A DNA stretch of 64,000 bases from an uncultured Rhodospirillales bacterium (GTDB taxonomy: Bacteria > Pseudomonadota > Alphaproteobacteria > Acetobacterales > Acetobacteraceae), in the NCBI GenBank assembly GCA_903845065.1, contig CAIMWH010000237.1, forward strand, positions 1-64,000. The letters are read 5' to 3'. Position numbers and translations under genes: made by a program. Positions within the stretch are counted from its first letter, which is position 1; the number at the start of each line of letters is the position of its first letter. The notes beneath the pieces are model-generated. The model saw only the letters and a list, made by a program, of their open reading frames with translations. It had not been told where the DNA came from and searched no databases. Shown here one piece after another: positions 5,332 to 17,777 of this stretch.

Positions 5332-5815
5332 ACCCCAGCGGCAACACGTTGGTGTACTTCACCTGCCCCAGCGCGAAACTCGACTCGATCGAGGCAATCC
5401 CCGCCAACCGGGTGAGCTTGGTTTTCACGAACCGCTCGTACGCCTCCAGGTCCGCCACCACCACCCGCAACAGATAGTCGCGCGGCCCGGTCATCAGGTA
5501 GCACTCCAGCACCTCCGGCCAGTGCGCCACACCCCGATTGAAATGCTCCAGCGCCTCCTCGCGCTGGCTCTCCAGCTTGATCGAGATGAACACGCTCACC
5601 GGCAGCCCCACCGCCCGCTGGTCCAGCACCGCCACGTAGCGCGCGATCACCCCCGCCTCCTCCAGCGCCCGCACCCGCCGCAAGCACGGCGAGGCCGACA
5701 ACCCCACCCGGACCGCCAGTTCCGCCAGGCTCAACCGCCCATCGGTCTGCAATTCGGCGAGGATCTTGCGGTCGATCCGGTCCAATGTCCGCGCGCGCAA
5801 TTTTCCCGTCCCCAT
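5330..5815 (-). CDS. Lrp/AsnC family transcriptional regulator
   Basis: LDRIDRKILAELQTDGRLSLAELAVRVGLSASPCLRRVRALEEAGVI plus RAM-type C-terminal domain. Confidence 0.93.
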   Translation of the reverse strand: MGTGKLRARTLDRIDRKILAELQTDGRLSLAELAVRVGLSASPCLRRVRALEEAGVIARYVAVLDQRAVGLPVSVFISIKLESQREEALEHFNRGVAHWPEVLECYLMTGPRDYLLRVVVADLEAYERFVKTKLTRLAGIASIESSFALGQVKYTNVLPLG

Positions 5816-5949
5816 CTCGCCATAAAGGGTGGAATCCACCCTATTTCCCTCCCACCCTGCATGAAATCGGCAAAATCCACCAGCCGGGCAATGCGATAAA
5901 TTCCCCAACCACGCCCCGCTGCCCGGGCGCGGATGGGGAACTTCCAGCC

Positions 5950-8355
5950 ATGGATGGCAACGCCTTCTCGCCCGTCACCACCCGCGCCAATGACGACATT
6001 GCCGTGCTGGCCGAACTCGAACGCAAGATCCTCTGGCTCGCCAGCTGGACCATCCACAACGCCAACCACCTGCGCGAAAACACCGACGGCCTGAAAGTCG
6101 GCGGCCACCAGGCCTCCTGCGCCTCGCTGACCACCATCATGACCGCCCTCTACCTCGCCACCCTCCGTCCGCAGGATCGCGTGGCGGTCAAGCCGCACGC
6201 CGCCCCGGTCTTCCACGCCATCCAGTACCTGCTCGGCCAACAAACCCGCGAGAAACTCCAGGCCTTCCGCGCCCTCGGCGGCGCCCAGAGCTACCCCTCC
6301 CGCACCAAGGACACCGACGACGTCGATTTCTCCACCGGCTCCGTCGGCCTCGGCGTGGCGCAAACCCTCTTCGCCTCCCTCGCACAGGACTATCTGCGCG
6401 CCCATGATTTCGCCGCCGCCCGCCCCGAGGGCCGCATGATCTCCCTCATGGGCGATGCCGAAATGGACGAGGGCAACATTTTCGAGGCCATCCTCGAAGG
6501 CTGGAAACAGGGCCTGCGCAACTGCTGGTGGGTGATCGACTACAACCGCCAAAGCCTCGATGCCGTGGTCCGCGAGGGACTATGGGCGCGCTACGAAGCC
6601 CTTTTCCGCGCCTTCGGCTGGGATGTGGTGATCGTCAAGCACGGCACCCTGCAACGCGCCGCCTTCGCCGAGCCCGGCGGCGAGCGCCTGCGCGCGTGGA
6701 TCGACACCTGCCCCAACCAGCTATACTCTGCCCTCGTCTTCCAGGGCGGCAGCGCCTGGCGCAAACGCCTCACCGCCGACTTCGCCGATGACCCCGCAGC
6801 CCTCGCTCTGCTCGCCCGCCGCGATGACAGCGCCCTCGCCGCCCTGATGAACAACCTCGGCGGGCATGACCTGCCAAGCCTCATCGACGCCTTCGCCAGC
6901 ATCGACCACGACCGCCCGGTCTGCTTCATCTGCTACACCATCAAGGGCATGGGCCTCCCCCTTGCCGGCCACAAGGACAACCACGCCGGGCTGATGAACC
7001 TCGCCCAGATGGAAACCTTCCGCACCGCCATGAAGGTGCGCCCCGGCCACGAGTGGGACCATTTCGAGGGCCTCGGCCTGCCCGAAACCATGCTGCAAAA
7101 CTTCCTCGACACCGCCGGCTTCAAGCGCGAAGGCACCCGCCGCCGCCAGGCCGCCCGCATCCCCACCCCGGACACCCTGCCGCTCACCATCGCGCCCACC
7201 ATGTCCACCCAGATGGCCTTCGGCGCCATCCTCAACGAAATCGGCAAACGCCAGGATGACTTCGCCGCCCGCGTCGTCACCACCAGCCCCGATGTCACCG
7301 TCTCCACCAATCTCGGCGGCTGGGTGAACCGCCGCGGCCTGTTCGCCCGCGAGGCGCTGCGTGACACCTTCAAGAGCGAGCGCATCCCATCCACCTTCAA
7401 CTGGGAATTCTCCCCGCGCGGCCAGCACATGGAACTCGGCATCGCCGAGATGAACCTGTTCATCCTGCTCTCCGCCCTCGGCCTGTCCCACACGCTGCAC
7501 GGCGAACGCCTGCTGCCCGTCGGCACCGTCTACGATCCGTTCATCTGCCGCGGCCTCGATGCCCTGAACTACGCCTGCTACCAGGACTCCCGCTTCATCA
7601 TCGCCGGCACCCCGTCGGGCATCACCCTCGCCCCCGAGGGCGGCGCCCACCAATCGATCTCCACCCCGCTCATCGGCATGGCCCAGCCCGGCCTCGCCAG
7701 CTTCGAGCCCGCCTTCGCCGATGAACTCGCCGCCGTCATGGCCTGGAGCTTCGCCTACATCCAGCATGACGCGAAAGCCGACGTCCCACCCGATGACCTG
7801 CTGGCCGACGCCCGCGGCGGCGCCGTCTACCTCCGCATGTCCACCCGCCCCATCGAGCAGCCCCAGCGCGCCATCACCCCCGAACTGCGGGATGACATCG
7901 TGGCCGGCGCCTACTGGATGCGCCGCCCCGGCCCCAACTGCCAGCTTGTCGTCGCCTACACCGGCACCGTCGCCCCCGAGGCGATCCAGGCCGTCGGCCT
8001 CCTCGGCGAAACCCAGCGCGACATCGGCCTCCTCGCCATCACCTCGGCCGACCGCCTGAAAGCCGGCTGGATGGCCGCCAACCGCGCCCGTGAAGCCGGC
8101 GACACCAAAGCGCGCAGCCACATCGAAACCCTGTTCGCTGCCCTGCCGCCCCATTGCGCCCTGGTCACCGTGCTCGATGGCCATCCCGCCACCCTCTCCT
8201 GGCTCGGCGGCGTGCGCGGCCAGAAACTCCGCCCCCTCGGCGTCGAGCAGTTCGGCCAGACCGGTTCCATCACCGACCTCTACCGCCTCAACGGCATCGA
8301 CACCGCCGCCATCGTCAGCGCCGCCCAGGCGGTGGCGCGCGCCCCGCTGCGCTAG
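5950..8355 (+). CDS. Homodimeric-type 2-oxoacid (pyruvate) dehydrogenase E1 / transketolase-like protein
   Basis: ATG at 5950; AceE-like motifs (FSTGSVGLGVAQTLFASLAQDY, MGDAEMDEGNIFEAI, NWEFSPRGQHMELGIAEMNLF). Confidence 0.85.
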   Translation: MDGNAFSPVTTRANDDIAVLAELERKILWLASWTIHNANHLRENTDGLKVGGHQASCASLTTIMTALYLATLRPQDRVAVKPHAAPVFHAIQYLLGQQTREKLQAFRALGGAQSYPSRTKDTDDVDFSTGSVGLGVAQTLFASLAQDYLRAHDFAAARPEGRMISLMGDAEMDEGNIFEAILEGWKQGLRNCWWVIDYNRQSLDAVVREGLWARYEALFRAFGWDVVIVKHGTLQRAAFAEPGGERLRAWIDTCPNQLYSALVFQGGSAWRKRLTADFADDPAALALLARRDDSALAALMNNLGGHDLPSLIDAFASIDHDRPVCFICYTIKGMGLPLAGHKDNHAGLMNLAQMETFRTAMKVRPGHEWDHFEGLGLPETMLQNFLDTAGFKREGTRRRQAARIPTPDTLPLTIAPTMSTQMAFGAILNEIGKRQDDFAARVVTTSPDVTVSTNLGGWVNRRGLFAREALRDTFKSERIPSTFNWEFSPRGQHMELGIAEMNLFILLSALGLSHTLHGERLLPVGTVYDPFICRGLDALNYACYQDSRFIIAGTPSGITLAPEGGAHQSISTPLIGMAQPGLASFEPAFADELAAVMAWSFAYIQHDAKADVPPDDLLADARGGAVYLRMSTRPIEQPQRAITPELRDDIVAGAYWMRRPGPNCQLVVAYTGTVAPEAIQAVGLLGETQRDIGLLAITSADRLKAGWMAANRAREAGDTKARSHIETLFAALPPHCALVTVLDGHPATLSWLGGVRGQKLRPLGVEQFGQTGSITDLYRLNGIDTAAIVSAAQAVARAPLR

Positions 8356-8369
8356 GCCACGCCGCTCCA

Positions 8370-8388
8370 AAGATACATTTTATATCTT
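8370..8388. promoter_or_regulatory. Possible second, degenerate NsrR-like site
   Basis: AAGATACATTTTATATCTT: 6-bp perfect outer arms AAGATA/TATCTT. Confidence 0.4.
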
Positions 8389-8406
8389 GCTTTCATCCCG
8401 CGTCGA

Positions 8407-8437
8407 ACCTAAGTCGTATTTGAAATACATCTTAGGT
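8407..8437. promoter_or_regulatory. NsrR-like operator palindrome upstream of NO-response operon
   Basis: ACCTAAGTCGTATTTGAAATACATCTTAGGT, 15-bp arms with 13/15 complementary; 11-1-11 core AAGTCGTATTT-G-AAATACATCTT resembles the enterobacterial NsrR consensus. Confidence 0.7.
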
Positions 8438-8443
8438 CCCGCC

Positions 8444-8590
8444 ATGAAACTCTTCTTCCTGCCCGGAAACCTCGTCGCCGACCTCCTCGGCGTCACCAAA
8501 TCCGATGACCGCGCGATGATCCGAACCATGATCGACATGCTATTCTGGAACATTGTCATCGTCGCCGGCGCGTTCATCGTCTTCGTATGA
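8444..8590 (+). CDS. 48-aa single-TM hypothetical protein
   Basis: MKLFFLPGNLVADLLGVTKSDDRAMIRTMIDMLFWNIVIVAGAFIVFV; stop overlaps next ATG (ATGA). Confidence 0.7.
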   Translation: MKLFFLPGNLVADLLGVTKSDDRAMIRTMIDMLFWNIVIVAGAFIVFV

Positions 8591-9021
8591 ACCCGCCGCT
8601 CACCGAGGTCACCGAATCCGCCATCAAGCGCCTCGTCGACCAGTTCTACGCCCGCGTCCGCCGCCACCCGGTCCTCGGCCCGGTGTTTGACGCCGCGATC
8701 CCCGAACCCGCCTGGCCGCCGCACCTGGAGAAGATGTACGCCTTCTGGTCCTCCGTCATGCTGACCAGCGGCCGCTACAAGGGCAACCCGGTCGCCGTCC
8801 ACCGCGACGTCGCCGGCATCACCCCCCCGCTGTTCGCCACCTGGCTCGAACTGTTCGAGGCCACCGCGACCGACATGTTCGCCCCCGAACCCGCCGCCCG
8901 CTTCGTGCGCGCCGCCCAGCGCATCGCCGAAAGCCTCAAGCTCGCCCTGTTCTTCCAGCCCGACCAGCCCTGGCCCGAAGACCTCCGCCGCCGCACGCCG
9001 GACGCACGCCCATGCGCCTGA
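8587..9021 (+). CDS. Group III truncated haemoglobin
   Basis: LVDQFYARVRRHPVLGPVFDAAI...HLEKMYAFWSSVMLTSGRYKGNPVAVHRDV, typical trHb3 layout. Confidence 0.88.
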   Translation: MNPPLTEVTESAIKRLVDQFYARVRRHPVLGPVFDAAIPEPAWPPHLEKMYAFWSSVMLTSGRYKGNPVAVHRDVAGITPPLFATWLELFEATATDMFAPEPAARFVRAAQRIAESLKLALFFQPDQPWPEDLRRRTPDARPCA

Positions 9022-9485
9022 CCGCCTTCAGCGACTACACCCTGCGCACCCTCATCTACCTCGCCCTGCGCCCCGCAACCCTCGCCACCATCGACGAAAT
9101 CGCCGCCGCCTACGCCATCTCCGCCAACCACCTCACCAAGGTGGTGCACCAGGCCGCCCAGGCCGGCGACGTGCAGACTGTCCGCGGCCAGGGCGGCGGC
9201 CTGCGCCTCGCACGCCCACCCGCGTCCATCAACATCGGCGCCGTGCTGCGCCGCACCGAGCCCGACATGGCCCTCGCCGCCTGCTTTGGCACCGATTCCA
9301 CCTGCCCCATCCAGCCCGCCTGCGTCCTGCAAGGCGCCCTCGCCGAAGCCCTCGCCGCCTTCCTCGCCGTGATGGACCGCTGGACCCTGGCCGACCTGGT
9401 CCAGCCCAGAACTCAGCTATGCGCCCTCCTCCACCTGGACCCCGCCACCGAACCGCCCGCCCACAGGAGCCCCCATGTCGCCTGA
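9012..9485 (+). CDS. nsrR: Rrf2 family regulator, NsrR-like
   Basis: MRLTAFSDYTLRTLIYLALRP, GGGLRLARP, three-Cys cluster motif CFGTDSTCPIQPAC. Confidence 0.85.
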   Translation: MRLTAFSDYTLRTLIYLALRPATLATIDEIAAAYAISANHLTKVVHQAAQAGDVQTVRGQGGGLRLARPPASINIGAVLRRTEPDMALAACFGTDSTCPIQPACVLQGALAEALAAFLAVMDRWTLADLVQPRTQLCALLHLDPATEPPAHRSPHVA

Positions 9486-9909
9486 TCCGGCCCGCTTCGC
9501 CGAAACCCTGGTCGCCGGCATGCCCGACGCCCTCGTCTACGCCGACGCCGCCGGCGCCATCCGGGTCTGGAACGCCGGCGCCACCCGCCTCTTCGGCTTC
9601 ACCGAGGCCGAAGCCCTCGGCCGCCCGCTCGACATAATCATCCCCGCCGGCCTGCGCGAACGCCACTGGCACGGCTATCACGCCACCATGGCCACCGGAC
9701 AATCCCGCTACGGCGACGGCCAACTCCTCTCCGTCCCCGCCATCCACAAGGACGGCCGGCGCCTCTCTGTCGAATTCACCATCGTCCCCTTCGCCGGCCC
9801 CGACGGCCGCATGGAAGGCATCGCCGCCATCCTGCGCGACGCCACCGCCCGCTTCGAGGAACTCCGCGCCCTGCGCAAGCAACTCGCCGCCCGGCCCGAC
9901 CAGGCCTAA
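9475..9909 (+). CDS. Stand-alone PAS domain protein
   Basis: AIRVWNAGATRLFGFTEAEALGRPLDIIIP...DGRMEGIAAILRDAT; overlaps nsrR end. Confidence 0.85.
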   Translation: MSPDPARFAETLVAGMPDALVYADAAGAIRVWNAGATRLFGFTEAEALGRPLDIIIPAGLRERHWHGYHATMATGQSRYGDGQLLSVPAIHKDGRRLSVEFTIVPFAGPDGRMEGIAAILRDATARFEELRALRKQLAARPDQA

Positions 9910-11055: not shown

Positions 11056-11832
11056 CTAGATCAACAACATCGGCACCCGCCGCCCCTCGAACAGCCCGGC
11101 CACCTCCGCCTCCCCCGCCGCCGGCCGCGCCATCACGATCACCTGCTCCCGCATCCCGCCCAGCGCCGACAGGATATCGGCAGGCTTCCCCACCGCCACG
11201 CACCGAACCACCACCCGCCCAACCGGCACCCCCGCCGCCACCGCCCGCGCCCGGACCGAGGCCTCGTCCACCGCCCGCCCGGCCAGCACCATCAACCCAT
11301 CCCCCGCAGCCGCCGCAATCCGGCACGCCACCTCCAGCGCCGGATCGTCGTCACCGGCCATCACCGCCACCACCGCCCCCCCGCGCGGCTGGAACCCGCG
11401 CGGCAGCAGCAGGCACGAGGCCAACGGCGCCGCCCCCCGCGCCTGCGGCCCCACCCGCACCACGATATCATCCGTCCGGCACAGCCCCGCCAGACACGCC
11501 GCCGGCTCCCCGCGCAACACCTCGAAGGCGCGCGGCACCCCGTCATCCCCCAGCGTCCGGTCCAGCAACTGCCGCGCCTGCACTGCCGCATGGCGCAATT
11601 CCGCCGCCAGCGCCGAGGCGTCGATCGGGCTCCAGTCATGCGTCGGCAACCGATACTCGCGCGCGAACGGCAACCCCGCCAACGCCAGCACCGCCTCGTC
11701 CTCGATGAACACGCAATGCAGCTCCACCCCCAGCAGCCGCGCGAACGCCTCCGCCGCCCGCAACGCCGCCGCATCCGCCGCGCCATGCCCGATATCCAGC
11801 ACCAACCGCCGAAACCCGTCGCTCTCGCTCAT
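11056..11832 (-). CDS. UspA-like / universal stress-type protein
   Basis: Rossmann-like 258-aa protein (RRLVLDIGHGAADAAALRAAEAFARLLGVELHCVFIED); stop/start overlap with upstream Lon-like gene. Confidence 0.55.
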   Translation of the reverse strand: MSESDGFRRLVLDIGHGAADAAALRAAEAFARLLGVELHCVFIEDEAVLALAGLPFAREYRLPTHDWSPIDASALAAELRHAAVQARQLLDRTLGDDGVPRAFEVLRGEPAACLAGLCRTDDIVVRVGPQARGAAPLASCLLLPRGFQPRGGAVVAVMAGDDDPALEVACRIAAAAGDGLMVLAGRAVDEASVRARAVAAGVPVGRVVVRCVAVGKPADILSALGGMREQVIVMARPAAGEAEVAGLFEGRRVPMLLI

Positions 11833-14258
11833 CCCGGCTTCCCCTCGCCATGCTCGCCCTCGGCCTCCCGCCGCGCCGCCGCGAACCGCCGCAACCGATC
11901 CTCCACCCGCCGGTTCACCGAGCCCTCCGCATACGCCCCGTCCGCCCCCCGCCCCCCGGCCGGCACCCCCGCCAGCAGCGCGATCCCCTCATCGATGCTG
12001 GCCACCGGATACACCGCGAACCGCCCCGCCGCGCACGCCGCCACCACATCCGCCCGCAACATCAAATGCTGCACATTCGATGCCGGGATCATCACCCCCT
12101 GGGTCCCCGTCAGCCCCCGCGCCGCGCAGATATCAAAAAACCCCTCGATCTTCTCGTTCACCCCGCCGATCGCCTGCACCATCCCGTGCTGGTTCACCGA
12201 CCCGGTCACCGCGAGATCCTGCCGCAACGGCACCTCCGCCAGCGCCGACAACAGGCTGTAAAGCTCGGCCGAGGACGCGCTATCCCCCTCCACCCCGCCA
12301 TAGGACTGCTCGAACACCAGGCTCGCCGTCAGCGACATCGGCACCTCCAGCGCATACCGCCCGGCCAGGAAGCCCGACAGGATCAGCACCCCCTTCGAAT
12401 GGATCGGCCCGCCCAGTTTCACCTCGCGCTCGATATCGATGATCCGCCCCGCCCCCGGCCGCACCTGGCAGGTAATCCTCGAGGGCTGCCCGAACGCATA
12501 ATCCCCCAGCGACAACACGCTGAGCCCGTTCACCTGCCCCACCCGTGCCCCGCTGGTCTCGATCAACGCGATATCGCGCAGGATCATCTCCCGACCCCGC
12601 TCCTGGATGCGCGCCCCGCGATGAATGCGCCCGGCGATGGCCTGCTCGATATCCGCAGCCCCGATCACCCCCCGCCCCGCCCGCCCGGCCAGGTGATCCG
12701 CCTCCGCCACCACATCCTGCAACCGCTCCACCATCAGCGTCAGTTTGCCCGCATCATCGGCCACCCGCGCCGCATGCTCGATCGCCCGCGCCACCCCGCC
12801 CCGGTCCAGCGGCCGCAGCCCACCCTCCGCCGCCATCCCCCCGATCAGCCGCGCCAGCATCGCCTCGCTTTCGGGCGAGCGGTCCATCTCATCGTCGAAA
12901 TCCGCCAACACCTTGAAATGCTGTGCCATTTCCGGATCGAGCGATATCAGCATGTAGTACAGCATCCGATCCCCGAACAGCACCACCTTCACATCGAGCG
13001 GGATCGGGTCCGGCTCCAGCGATACCGTGGTGGCCAGCCCGATAAACCGCGCCACATCCTCGATCGTCACCTCCTGCCGCAGCAGCGCCCGCTTCAGCGC
13101 CTGCCAGCTATACGGCTCACTCAACAGGCTGCGCGCATCGAGCAGGATCATCCCGCCATTCGCCCGGTGCAGCGCCCCCGCCTTGATCAGCCGGAAATTG
13201 GTCACCAGCGCGCCCTGCACCTGCTGGTATTCGATCCGCCCGACCAGGTTCGCCAACGTCGGGTGCGGCTCCTCGATCACCGGCGCCCCCGCGCCATGGT
13301 CCGCCTGGGTGACGAACACGTTGATCTCATACCGATCGAACGGCCCCGCCAGCCGCATCGCCGCCTGCGCCGCCCCCTGTGCGGCGGCCTCCGGCGAGAC
13401 GAAATACTGCACGTTCTCCAGCAGATCAGCCCGCATCGCCTCGATATGCGCCAGCACCGCCGGCAGGTCGGCAAACGCCGCCTTCAGATGCTCGAACGGC
13501 GGCGCCACCGCCACCTCGGCGGTCTCCCGATCCAGCGCCCGCAGCGCGTCGCGCTGCGCCTTCTCGGTGCGCGGAATGGCCCGCAACGTCTGCTCCAGTT
13601 CCTTCTCTAACTCCGCGATCGCCGCCTGCGTCTCCTGCTGCGCCGCCTCCGGCCAGCCGTTGAACTCCGCCGGTGGCACCACCTTGCCGTTCTTCACCGG
13701 CGCCATGCCGAACCCCATCGGCGTGCGCAGGATCACGATGTTCTTCGCCGCCGCCCGCTCGTTCAGCGCCGCGAAGGCCTGCTCGTTCTTGGCCTGGATC
13801 GCCTGCTCGATGCTGCCCCGCCGCTTCTGGTAATCCTCGCTCTCGAACACCGCCGGCAGCGAAACCCGCAGGTCGTCGATCAGGTCATGCACCGCCTTCT
13901 GGAACCCCGGCGCCCGCCCCCCCGGCAACGCCAGCGCCACCGGCCGATGCGCCTCGGCGAAATTCGCCACATACACCCAGTCCCGCGGATACGCCCGCGC
14001 CCGCGCCGCATCGTCCAGCAGCGTCTTCGCGGCATGCTGCATGCGCGCGCCACCCGCCCCGATGGCGAATATGTTGAACCCCCGCTGCCCCATCGCCGCG
14101 CCGAAACTGATCGCCTCCTGCGCCCGCTGCTGATGCACCAGCCCCGGCAACGCCGCGAGGTCCGCCGTGGTCTCGAACGCCAACCCGCCAAGATCGGCCG
14201 CGCGATGCAATCGCTCCGGCGCTACCGCACGAATGAACTGGGTGTCCTCGCTCGACAT
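11829..14258 (-). CDS. Lon-related protease (AAA_32 / S16 peptidase)
   Basis: S16 domain with catalytic Ser (GDSASSAELYSLLSAL) and Lys (GGVNEKIEGF); HRANGGMILLDA; ATG at 14258 has AGGAGG upstream (14276 in the ORF track is a GTG). Confidence 0.87.
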   Translation of the reverse strand: MSSEDTQFIRAVAPERLHRAADLGGLAFETTADLAALPGLVHQQRAQEAISFGAAMGQRGFNIFAIGAGGARMQHAAKTLLDDAARARAYPRDWVYVANFAEAHRPVALALPGGRAPGFQKAVHDLIDDLRVSLPAVFESEDYQKRRGSIEQAIQAKNEQAFAALNERAAAKNIVILRTPMGFGMAPVKNGKVVPPAEFNGWPEAAQQETQAAIAELEKELEQTLRAIPRTEKAQRDALRALDRETAEVAVAPPFEHLKAAFADLPAVLAHIEAMRADLLENVQYFVSPEAAAQGAAQAAMRLAGPFDRYEINVFVTQADHGAGAPVIEEPHPTLANLVGRIEYQQVQGALVTNFRLIKAGALHRANGGMILLDARSLLSEPYSWQALKRALLRQEVTIEDVARFIGLATTVSLEPDPIPLDVKVVLFGDRMLYYMLISLDPEMAQHFKVLADFDDEMDRSPESEAMLARLIGGMAAEGGLRPLDRGGVARAIEHAARVADDAGKLTLMVERLQDVVAEADHLAGRAGRGVIGAADIEQAIAGRIHRGARIQERGREMILRDIALIETSGARVGQVNGLSVLSLGDYAFGQPSRITCQVRPGAGRIIDIEREVKLGGPIHSKGVLILSGFLAGRYALEVPMSLTASLVFEQSYGGVEGDSASSAELYSLLSALAEVPLRQDLAVTGSVNQHGMVQAIGGVNEKIEGFFDICAARGLTGTQGVMIPASNVQHLMLRADVVAACAAGRFAVYPVASIDEGIALLAGVPAGGRGADGAYAEGSVNRRVEDRLRRFAAARREAEGEHGEGKPG

Positions 14259-14320
14259 GTCCCGCCTCCTCGCCACGCGCTATCACGCCCATATGGGGGC
14301 GCCCGACGCATTGACCAACA

Positions 14321-14977
14321 TCAACCGCCCCCCACCAGCGGCACGAACGCCACCCGCAGCACCTCGCGCTGCATCACCGCTCCGCTGCCATGCTTGGTGA
14401 TCCGCATCAGCCGCTGCTCCGCCCACGGCGCGCCCACCGGGATCACCATCCGCCCCCCCGGCTTCAACTGCGCCAGCAACGCCGGCGGCACCTCCGCCGC
14501 CGCTGCCGTCACCATGATGGCATCGAACGGCGCCCGCTCCGGCCACCCCAGCGCCCCATCCCCGGTCCGCAGCGCGATATTGCGATACCCCACCAACGCC
14601 CCCCGCGCCGCCTCCGTCAGCGCCGCGATGATCTCCACCGAACACACCTGCCCCGCCAGTTCCGCCAGCACCGCCGCCTGGTAGCCCGAGCCCGTCCCCA
14701 CCTCCAGCACCACATCCCCGGGCGCCACATCGAGCAACTCCGTCATGATGGCGACGATGAACGGCTGCGAAATCGTCTGGTGATGCCCGATCGGCAGCGG
14801 CCGGTTCACATACGCCCGCGCCCGCTCCTCCTCCGGCACAAACGCCGCCCGCCGCACCCGGCGCAACGCCGCCAACACGCGCGGGCTCAACACCGAACGC
14901 CCGGTGAACTGCGCCGTATGCCGCGTCTCGGCCTCGATCTCCGCGATCAACCCCTCCAGCGCCGGGTCCCGCTCCAT
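14321..14977 (-). CDS. pcm: Protein-L-isoaspartate O-methyltransferase
   Basis: RRAAFVPEEERARAYVNRPLPIGHHQTISQPFIVAIMTELL...VLEVGTGSGYQAAVLA. Confidence 0.92.
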   Translation of the reverse strand: MERDPALEGLIAEIEAETRHTAQFTGRSVLSPRVLAALRRVRRAAFVPEEERARAYVNRPLPIGHHQTISQPFIVAIMTELLDVAPGDVVLEVGTGSGYQAAVLAELAGQVCSVEIIAALTEAARGALVGYRNIALRTGDGALGWPERAPFDAIMVTAAAAEVPPALLAQLKPGGRMVIPVGAPWAEQRLMRITKHGSGAVMQREVLRVAFVPLVGGG

Positions 14978-15984
14978 CACGCCGCCCCCCGCCACACCCC
15001 ATCCGGCACCAGCACCGCCGCCCCGGTCAGCCGCCCCGACCGCAACCGCTCCAGCACCGCATTGGCCTCGCTCAGCGCAAACGCCTCGGTCTGCGTCACC
15101 ACCGGCACAACAGGCGCCAACGCCAGGAACGCCTCCGCATCCGCCCGCGTCAGGTTCGCCACCGAGCGCAGCACCCGCTCCCCCCACAGCAGCGCATACG
15201 CGAAGGACGGTATGTCGCTCATATGAATGCCGCCACACACCACCACGCCCCCCGGCCGCACCGCCGCCAGCGCCGCCGGTACCAACTCCCCCGCCGGCGC
15301 GAAAATCACCGCCGCATCCAGCCCCCCAGGCACCGCCTCCTCCGACCCGCCAGCCCACACCGCACCCAGCGCCCGCGCGAACCCCTGCGCCGCCACATCC
15401 CCCGCCCGGGTGAACGCCAGCACCTCCCGCCCCTCATGGCGCGCCACCTGCGTCACGATATGCGCCGCCGCCCCGAACCCGTAGATGCCGATCCGCCGCG
15501 CCTCCCCCGCCATCCGCAGCGCCCGATGCCCGATCAGCCCCGCGCACAGCAGCGGCGCCGCATGCACATCGTCATAATCCCCGTCGATCGCAAAGCAGTA
15601 GCGCGCATCCGCCACCGTATACTCGGCATACCCGCCATCGATGTGATACCCGGTGAACCGCGCCTCCGGGCACAGATTCTCCTGCCCCGCCACACAATAC
15701 GCGCACCGCCCGCACGTCCACCCCAGCCACGGCACCCCCACGCGGTCCCCCACAGAGAACCGCGTCACCCCAGCACCCAACTCCGCCACCCGGCCAACAA
15801 TCTCATGCCCCGGCACCAGCGGCAGCTTCGGCTCGGCCAACTCCCCGTCCACCACATGCAAATCCGTCCGGCACACCGCACACGCCCGCACCGCGATCAG
15901 CACCTCCCCCACACCCGGCACCGGTCGCGGCACCTCCCGCCCCTCCAGCAACCGCCCCGCCGCGGTCAGAACCATCGCGCGCAT
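14977..15984 (-). CDS. Zinc-dependent alcohol dehydrogenase family protein
   Basis: CRTDLHVVDGEL, PGHEIVG, GCGRCAYC-type structural Zn loop, IYGFGAAAH; ATGA overlap with pcm. Confidence 0.9.
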   Translation of the reverse strand: MRAMVLTAAGRLLEGREVPRPVPGVGEVLIAVRACAVCRTDLHVVDGELAEPKLPLVPGHEIVGRVAELGAGVTRFSVGDRVGVPWLGWTCGRCAYCVAGQENLCPEARFTGYHIDGGYAEYTVADARYCFAIDGDYDDVHAAPLLCAGLIGHRALRMAGEARRIGIYGFGAAAHIVTQVARHEGREVLAFTRAGDVAAQGFARALGAVWAGGSEEAVPGGLDAAVIFAPAGELVPAALAAVRPGGVVVCGGIHMSDIPSFAYALLWGERVLRSVANLTRADAEAFLALAPVVPVVTQTEAFALSEANAVLERLRSGRLTGAAVLVPDGVWRGAA

Positions 15985-16154
15985 GGAAAACCCTCCCGGT
16001 CCGCAACGACCCCCACGACAAGGGATGCGCCCGCCCCGGAAACAACCATGCCGCACCCCTCGCCCACCGCCGTTGACCTGCGTTAATGTTCCCGGCCCGC
16101 CCCCATATTAGCGTGCCATCCGGTTAGATTGCATACCGAAACAGGACCCCGCGC

Positions 16155-17777
16155 ATGGCCCACAAGCAAGTTCTCTTCCGCTCGGCCGCCCGCGAAAAGG
16201 TCCTGCGCGGCGTCACCATGCTCGCCGATGCCGTGCGCGTCACCCTCGGCCCCAAGTCCAAATCCGTCCTCATCCAGAAAGCCTGGGGCCCGCCCATCGT
16301 CTGCAATGACGGCGTGACCATCGCCAAGGAGTTCGACCTCAAGGACCCGGAGGAAAACCTCGGCGCCCGCATGCTCCGCCAGGCCGCCGAGAAAACCGGC
16401 GACAGCGTGGGCGACGGCACCAGCACCTCCACCATCCTCGCCCACGCCATGTTCGCCGATGGCCTGCGCAACGTCGTCGCCGGCGCCAGCGCCATCGACC
16501 TCAAGCGCGGCATCGAGCGCGGCACCAGGCTCGTCATCGAAACCCTCCGCGCCCTCTCGCGAGACGTTCACGCCCGCAGCCAGATGGCCCAGGTCGCCAC
16601 CATCTCCGCCCACAATGACGCCGCCATCGGCGAACTCGTCGCCGAAGCCATGGAGAAAGTCGGCGGCGAAGGCGTCATCACCGTCGAGGAGTCGAAAACC
16701 ACCGAAACCCTCCTCGAAGTCGTCGAGGGCATGCAGTTCGACCGCGGCTACATCTCACCCTACTTCGTCACCAACTCGGAAAAAATGATCACCGAGTTGG
16801 ATGAACCCTACATCCTCATCCACGAAAAAAAGCTCTCCACCCTGCAACCTTTGCTCCCCCTCCTCGAATCCGTCGTCCACTCCACCCGCCCCCTCCTCAT
16901 CGTGGCCGAGGATGTCGACGGCGAAGCCCTCGCCACCCTCGTCGTCAACCGCCTGCGCGGCAGCCTCAAGGTCGCCGCCGTCAAGGCCCCCGGCTTCGGA
17001 GACCGCCGCCGCGCCATGCTCGAAGACCTCGCCACCCTCACCGGCGGCCAGGTCATCTGCGAGGAAGTCGGCGTCAAACTCGAAAACACCACCATCGCCA
17101 TGCTCGGCACCGCCAGCCGCGCCGTCATCACCAACGATGCCACCACCGTCGTCGGCGGCGCCGGCCGCAAACCCGATATCGAGGGCCGCTGCGCCCAGAT
17201 CCGCCGCCAGATCAAGGAAGCCTCCTCGGACTACGACCGCGAGAAACTCCAGGAACGCCTCGCCAAACTCGCCGGCGGCGTCGCCGTCATCCGCGTCGGT
17301 GCCCCCACCGAGTCCGAGATGAAAGCCCGCAAGGAAGCCCTCGAAGACGCCATCAGCGCCACCAAGGCCGCCGTCGCCGAAGGCATCGTCCCCGGCGGAG
17401 GCCTCGCCTTCCTCCGCTGCATCCCCGCCCTCGCCGCCGAGGAAACCCGCTGCGATGGTGACGAACGCACCGGCCTCCAGGTCCTCAAACGCGCCCTCGA
17501 AGCCCCCGCCCGCCAGATCGCCGAAAACTCCGCCGTCGACGGCGGCGTCGTCGTCGCGCGCATGCTCGAAGGCACCGGCGCGCACGGCTTCGACGCCGCC
17601 ACCAAAACCTACGTCGATCTCGTCGAGGCCGGCATCATCGACCCCACCAAAGTCCTGCGTATCGCCCTCGAAAACGCCGTCTCCGTCGCCAGCGTGCTGC
17701 TTCTGACCGAAGCAACCATGACGGAGATACCGGAACCTACAAAAGAGACAGATGGTGCTCAGGACATGACAATGTAA
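16155..17777 (+). CDS. groEL: Chaperonin GroEL paralogue (HSP60), divergent, no adjacent groES
   Basis: [37 protein letters not shown]-terminus ends [14 protein letters not shown] without GGM repeats. Confidence 0.93.

Follow-up and report, generated by a model that had tools for sequence, protein, structure and literature searches.

A compact four-gene operon in a 64,000-nucleotide stretch of DNA from an uncultured member of the Acetobacteraceae (the window) is best read as an autoregulated unit for nitric oxide (NO) detoxification, in which a 48-residue microprotein would serve as the membrane anchor of a truncated haemoglobin (trHb) or of another NO protein, and to this reading we assign a probability of roughly 60%. 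Its regulation is the firm part, as autoregulation by NsrR of an operon for NO defence is well supported. The operon encodes, in order, the microprotein, a group III trHb, an NsrR-type repressor of the Rrf2 family and a stand-alone PAS protein (Table 1), and an earlier note on this DNA had described the four plus-strand genes as overlapping end to start, which was confirmed, with overlaps of 4 bp (ATGA) between microprotein and trHb, 10 bp between trHb and Rrf2, and 11 bp between Rrf2 and PAS. The span given there, 8356-9909, was right for the genes and not for their start, 8356 being the beginning of the promoter region and 8444 the first codon. The arrangement is not due to chance, since 29 of the 30 named loci have nsrR adjoining the microprotein gene, and the complete four-gene neighbourhood recurs, directly in one locus (L052) and with one extra gene before the PAS gene in three others (L074, L100 and L103). 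Scanning the window for Rfam families and tRNAs gave no matches.

Table 1. Positions of operators and genes of the operon, and of cyclo-ligase genes that lie next to PAS genes in related loci
Feature	Located in	Position	Strand	Sequence	Basis or remark
Site A, upstream NsrR-like dyad	window	8370-8392	+	AAGATACATTTTATATCTTGCTT	right end TTGCTT (8387-8392), putative -35
Site B, downstream NsrR-like dyad	window	8411-8433	+	AAGTCGTATTTGAAATACATCTT	overlaps putative -10, TAAGTC (8410-8415)
Microprotein, 48 aa	window	8444-8590	+		ORF call
Group III trHb, 144 aa	window	8587-9021	+		PDB match 2ig3, from Campylobacter
NsrR-type Rrf2 repressor, 157 aa	window	9012-9485	+		PF02082; best PDB match 5n07, Streptomyces NsrR
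Stand-alone PAS protein, 144 aa	window	9475-9909	+		PF08448/PF00989
5-Formyltetrahydrofolate (5-FTHF) cyclo-ligase	L074	6086-6691			PF01812
5-FTHF cyclo-ligase	L100	6046-6624			PF01812
5-FTHF cyclo-ligase	L143	1439-2071			PF01812
5-FTHF cyclo-ligase	L122	704-1462			PF01812
5-FTHF cyclo-ligase	L118	1926-2630			PF01812

Two NsrR-like dyads precede the first gene, with site A 41 bp upstream of site B, and these are an addition to the earlier note, in which the promoter was not mentioned. The hexamers TTGCTT and TAAGTC, separated by a 17-bp spacer, make a plausible promoter, and sites A and B therefore cover its putative -35 and -10 elements. Site B, with arms of 15 nt each (8407-8421 and 8423-8437) that are 87% complementary, agrees at 12 of 14 defined positions with the published NsrR consensus operator, gATGyAT-N5-ATrCATc (PMC1274295); nowhere else in the 5.9-Mb genome is the degenerate dyad matched with two or fewer mismatches, and the chance expectation for the window is 0.00. 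The site A element, AAGATGCATN5-6ATATTGCTTT, is found upstream of about 29 of 32 microprotein genes, as compared with a background of 0.6% for an A+T-rich 16-mer plus TTGCTT among 170-bp stretches drawn at random from the window, and site B follows 40-43 bp past it upstream of most microprotein genes, across many genera. In one genome (G018) the microprotein gene is on one contig and a trHb-nsrR pair on another, and the dyad signature is present at both. In the Neoroseomonas-type loci (L087, L098, L099, L101 and L102) a different sequence, perhaps the site of another regulator, replaces site B; in L101 the palindrome GTTGCGTGCACACGCAAC stands at this position, some 20-50 bases ahead of the microprotein gene. 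We consider it very likely that the operon is under NsrR control, and the tandem-operator signature is strong enough to help find further members of NsrR regulons.

The repressor itself matches the Rrf2 family profile at E=2e-32, begins with MRLT, and carries five residues that are invariant in 18 sequences (D8, R12, C91, C98 and C104), among them the aspartate and three cluster cysteines expected for NsrR; Asp8 is a cluster ligand of Streptomyces NsrR (ScNsrR; PMC9338935). We call the protein NsrR-type, not an NsrR equivalog, because its NCBIfam scores for RirA (126 bits, cut-off 193) and NsrR (124 bits, cut-off 182) are nearly equal and both below cut-off, so that we base the label on its ligands, operators and genomic context. 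These same scores would suit an iron or cluster regulator, similar to RirA or IscR, in an operon that answers iron or redox state rather than NO, an explanation made improbable by the invariant Asp8 with its three cysteines, by dyads that fit the NsrR consensus, and by partner genes that are themselves genes of NO detoxification. The NO response proposed in the earlier note is thus borne out by the invariant ligand set (D8/C91/C98/C104) together with the tandem dyads. The trHb has a group III trHb of Campylobacter as its best PDB match (E=1.7e-15), scores 18.9 bits against Pfam Bac_globin (gathering cut-off 21), and shares with 15 aligned sequences the invariant positions B9 F20, B10 Y21, E7 H46, F8 H72 and G8 W86. 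To our knowledge, group III truncated haemoglobins have no agreed function and no known electron donor.

The 48-residue microprotein of the window has no Pfam or NCBIfam family match, and some of its homologues have sub-threshold family matches only. It consists of a short N-terminal helix with an FxxPG motif, followed by one predicted membrane helix that bears R-x-M-x-R-x5-ML-x-WN, and AlphaFold places the short helix at residues 3-15 and the long one at 20-47 (pLDDT 88). Eight columns are invariant in an alignment of 30 sequences (F4, P7, G8, R23, M25, R27, L33 and W35), most differences between genes of close relatives fall at third codon positions, and comparison of the window with Rhodopila L074 gave a dN of 0.17 and a dS of 1.28; the microprotein is under purifying selection. 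Being the first ORF after the promoter, and overlapping trHb by ATGA in the window, L052 and L074, it has the position of a leader ORF that would only couple ribosomes into trHb and whose peptide would be functionless. We find this highly improbable in light of the eight invariant residues and the concentration of changes at third codon positions, and since the gene is also found downstream of trHb (G893, where trHb comes first and overlaps it) or away from trHb with dyads of its own (L060). Leader-ORF and chance-ORF readings of the peptide were rejected on the strength of the invariant residues, dN/dS and the independent gene positions. In all probability the microprotein is a genuine protein of the NO regulon.

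Among 150 genomes sampled from the same family, the microprotein is present in 10 other genomes, and scanning GTDB contigs with a profile yielded the 30 named loci, several of which are from the same genomes as in the family sample. The named loci belong to Rhodopila, Siccirubricoccus, Roseococcus, Falsiroseomonas, Pararoseomonas, Neoroseomonas, Acidisphaera, Limobrevibacterium, Alsobacter, Hyphomicrobiales MAGs, a Frigidibacter MAG and others. Profile searches at class and phylum level added more distant forms, including two loci (L069 and L105) in which the microprotein gene overlaps trHb with a divergent nsrR alongside. Solitary weak matches at E>0.05 were left out of the counts (one of them, G080, adjoins trHb), and a partial class-level match of 20 residues (E=7e-4) in G255, a genome without trHb, was taken as doubtful. 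A search of the available literature found no work on such a microprotein or on NsrR in Acetobacteraceae.

The association with trHb is tight at the level of genomes and looser at the level of loci. All 10 microprotein genomes of the family sample carry trHb, as compared with 33 of the 140 others (Fisher p=1.6e-6, kinship ignored), and all 10 carry an nsrR relative (p=8e-4, kinship ignored); in two class-level genomes (G831 and G405) the microprotein gene lies apart from any trHb gene, with trHb elsewhere in the genome. In a single genome, G568, trHb and microprotein form one 226-aa frame (L106:982-1662), which is weak evidence and perhaps no true fusion, because a Shine-Dalgarno-like GGAGG and an internal ATG lie between the two parts, and the genes are separate and overlapping in the sister genome G893. 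Within the named loci, trHb adjoins the microprotein gene in 15 of 30, and the other half are without an adjacent trHb. Neighbors there include NnrS (PF05940, E=1e-91; L095), DUF1971 (L084), DUF1971 followed by a flavohaemoglobin (L086) and the HPP transporter TM_HPP (L081), and the five Neoroseomonas-type loci have no trHb match beside the microprotein-nsrR pair. An apparent IS5-type transposase gene was seen right after the microprotein gene in a Roseococcus locus (L078:5208-6011), where no trHb was found. Given the constant nsrR, the varying partner and the complete co-occurrence with trHb, we conclude that the microprotein is a recurrent member of the NsrR regulon and not a subunit of trHb only.

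This pattern bears on what the microprotein does. Since it co-occurs with trHb, the best single guess is that it partners trHb at the membrane, and the main rival is a role as a subunit of another NO-exposed membrane enzyme. In that alternative the microprotein would serve as a small accessory subunit, or as a stabiliser, in a membrane enzyme of the haem or haem-copper type (a terminal oxidase, an NnrS-like protein or an NO reductase) that undergoes remodelling when NO is present, and its adjacency to trHb would reflect co-regulation only. That the microprotein stays with nsrR as the effector varies (NnrS, DUF1971/Hmp, HPP, trHb) is consistent with such a role, as are the Neoroseomonas-type loci and the conserved W and N of the membrane helix, which fit helix-helix packing; however, a microprotein that occurs in the sampled genomes exclusively together with trHb would be unexpected if only an oxidase mattered, and no oxidase gene is consistently adjacent, so we regard the enzyme-subunit role as rather unlikely. 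For the trHb partnership, the lack of any microprotein without trHb in the sampled genomes, the common NO-controlled promoter and the overlap in either gene order provide a concrete and testable candidate, and docking of trHb at the membrane by the microprotein is put forward tentatively.

The PAS protein gave a fold model with a pLDDT of 89, for which the top PDB folds are the haem-PAS domains FG214 and FixL. Its R63-H64-W65 is invariant, and H64 aligns with FixL His194 and with the histidine of 'EVH' in FG214, taken to be the proximal His156 of that protein. Since 20 of 45 unrelated PAS rows also have a histidine at the H64 position, which is hence no specific marker of haem, we rate haem binding as likely and as a prediction only, putting the odds of haem in this domain, judged from its sequence and model, at about even; the protein is probably a haem-based gas sensor whose output partner is not encoded in the operon. 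Orthologues share 52-79% identity, and 9 of the 30 named loci have one close to the microprotein gene. The PAS gene directly follows nsrR in L052 and in L142, the latter reading trHb-nsrR-PAS with no detectable microprotein, and it is found near nnrS (L095-L097); in L146 it belongs to an hmp-norB-PAS cluster that runs divergently from nsrR.

Genes of another kind also recur next to the PAS gene, namely those for 5-FTHF cyclo-ligase (by Pfam in five loci, Table 1, and by sequence similarity in L103, L094 and L075) and XdhC (L143 by Pfam; L094, L075, L118, L122 and L116 by sequence similarity). In Rhodopila and Acidisphaera the cyclo-ligase gene lies between nsrR and PAS. With these neighbors, and with three PAS loci (L116, L118 and L122) that have no NO gene nearby, it is a serious possibility, albeit one we lean against, that PAS belongs to an XdhC/5-FTHF-cyclo-ligase module and came into the NO operon through an accident of gene order. 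What tells against such an origin is that PAS stands beside trHb or nsrR free of both genes in the window, L052 and L142, that it is placed with hmp, norB and nnrS in the loci above, and that it co-occurs with trHb (p=6e-4). The earlier note had proposed that the microprotein and the PAS protein may be accessory parts of a sensor or NO-detoxification complex, and had named a lack of conservation beside trHb and nsrR as grounds for refutation. Both genes do recur as accessories in related loci, conserved beside trHb and nsrR, so that this ground falls away. That both are subunits of one trHb complex is not supported in this form, as the microprotein tracks nsrR and switches effector partners, and PAS is also found in XdhC/cyclo-ligase clusters without NO genes.

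The preferred reading, an autoregulated NO-detoxification unit with a membrane anchor, can be set out as a sequence of events. In the absence of NO, cluster-bearing NsrR would occupy both dyads over the -35 and -10 elements and keep the operon off, a step suggested by the positions of the sites and the known chemistry of NsrR. NO is predicted to destroy the Fe-S cluster, upon which NsrR would leave the DNA, the four genes would be expressed from one transcript with coupled translation, and trHb would bind NO and turn it over. The microprotein would span the inner membrane with its N-terminus on the inner side and would recruit trHb there as a small docking partner, to a place where NO would concentrate and electrons for re-reduction of the globin would be at hand; in other species it may dock a different protein of the NsrR regulon. 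The PAS protein would be a soluble gas sensor based on haem, with its signal passed to a partner encoded elsewhere. More ambitiously, the microprotein may be the founder of a family, so far undescribed, of single-pass membrane adaptors under NsrR control, whose task would be to dock single-domain trHbs, and in some lineages other NO proteins, to the respiratory membrane; we put this forward as a doubtful proposal. If it is true, group III trHb would obtain from a partner what flavohaemoglobins have within one chain, namely a supply of electrons or access to substrate. The need of single-domain globins for a separate electron donor is an idea with precedent (PMC3820574). With the microprotein, the NsrR regulon of Alphaproteobacteria gains a small protein without a database family.

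The unit appears to be accessory in its host lineage, because the sampled genus mates have no PAS gene, and two genomes (G003 and G004) have no microprotein, nsrR or trHb matches at the thresholds used. Upstream, at 5785-8355, lies a gene for a protein similar to pyruvate dehydrogenase E1 and transketolase, with two further partial matches in the genome (C296 and C133). As this gene is multi-copy here and the copies of congeners are only 58-60% identical, comparison of the insertion site with congeners is uninformative. Directly past the operon, at 11056-17777, genes for a universal-stress-type protein, a Lon-like AAA protease, an alcohol dehydrogenase-like protein and a GroEL-like protein were recognized by eye, and this region looks like a stress or low-oxygen island.

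Several known systems share parts of this design. The PAS protein has the fold and the proximal histidine position of FixL and FG214; unlike them it has no kinase or DNA-binding output, and it has a leucine at the approximate position of the distal arginine of FixL. The hmp promoter of Bacillus subtilis likewise has predicted tandem NsrR sites overlapping the promoter (PMC1274295), whereas its target is a flavohaemoglobin, and the window has a spacing of about 41 bp and an operon with a microprotein. Campylobacter Ctb belongs to the same trHb group, has the same haem-pocket residues and is also under NO-linked regulation (PMC3820574), which is exerted there by NssR, of the Crp-Fnr family, and here by NsrR-type control. 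A further system is the NsrR-controlled glbN-lpg2536 operon of Legionella pneumophila, a truncated globin with a ferredoxin reductase, in which the globin is a predicted NsrR target for NO oxidation (PMC1274295, PMC3820574). There the partner is a reductase, whereas here it is a membrane microprotein together with a PAS protein, nsrR lies inside the operon and the globin is of group III. A truncated globin under NsrR has a precedent in Legionella glbN, and what is new in the window is the microprotein/PAS variant.
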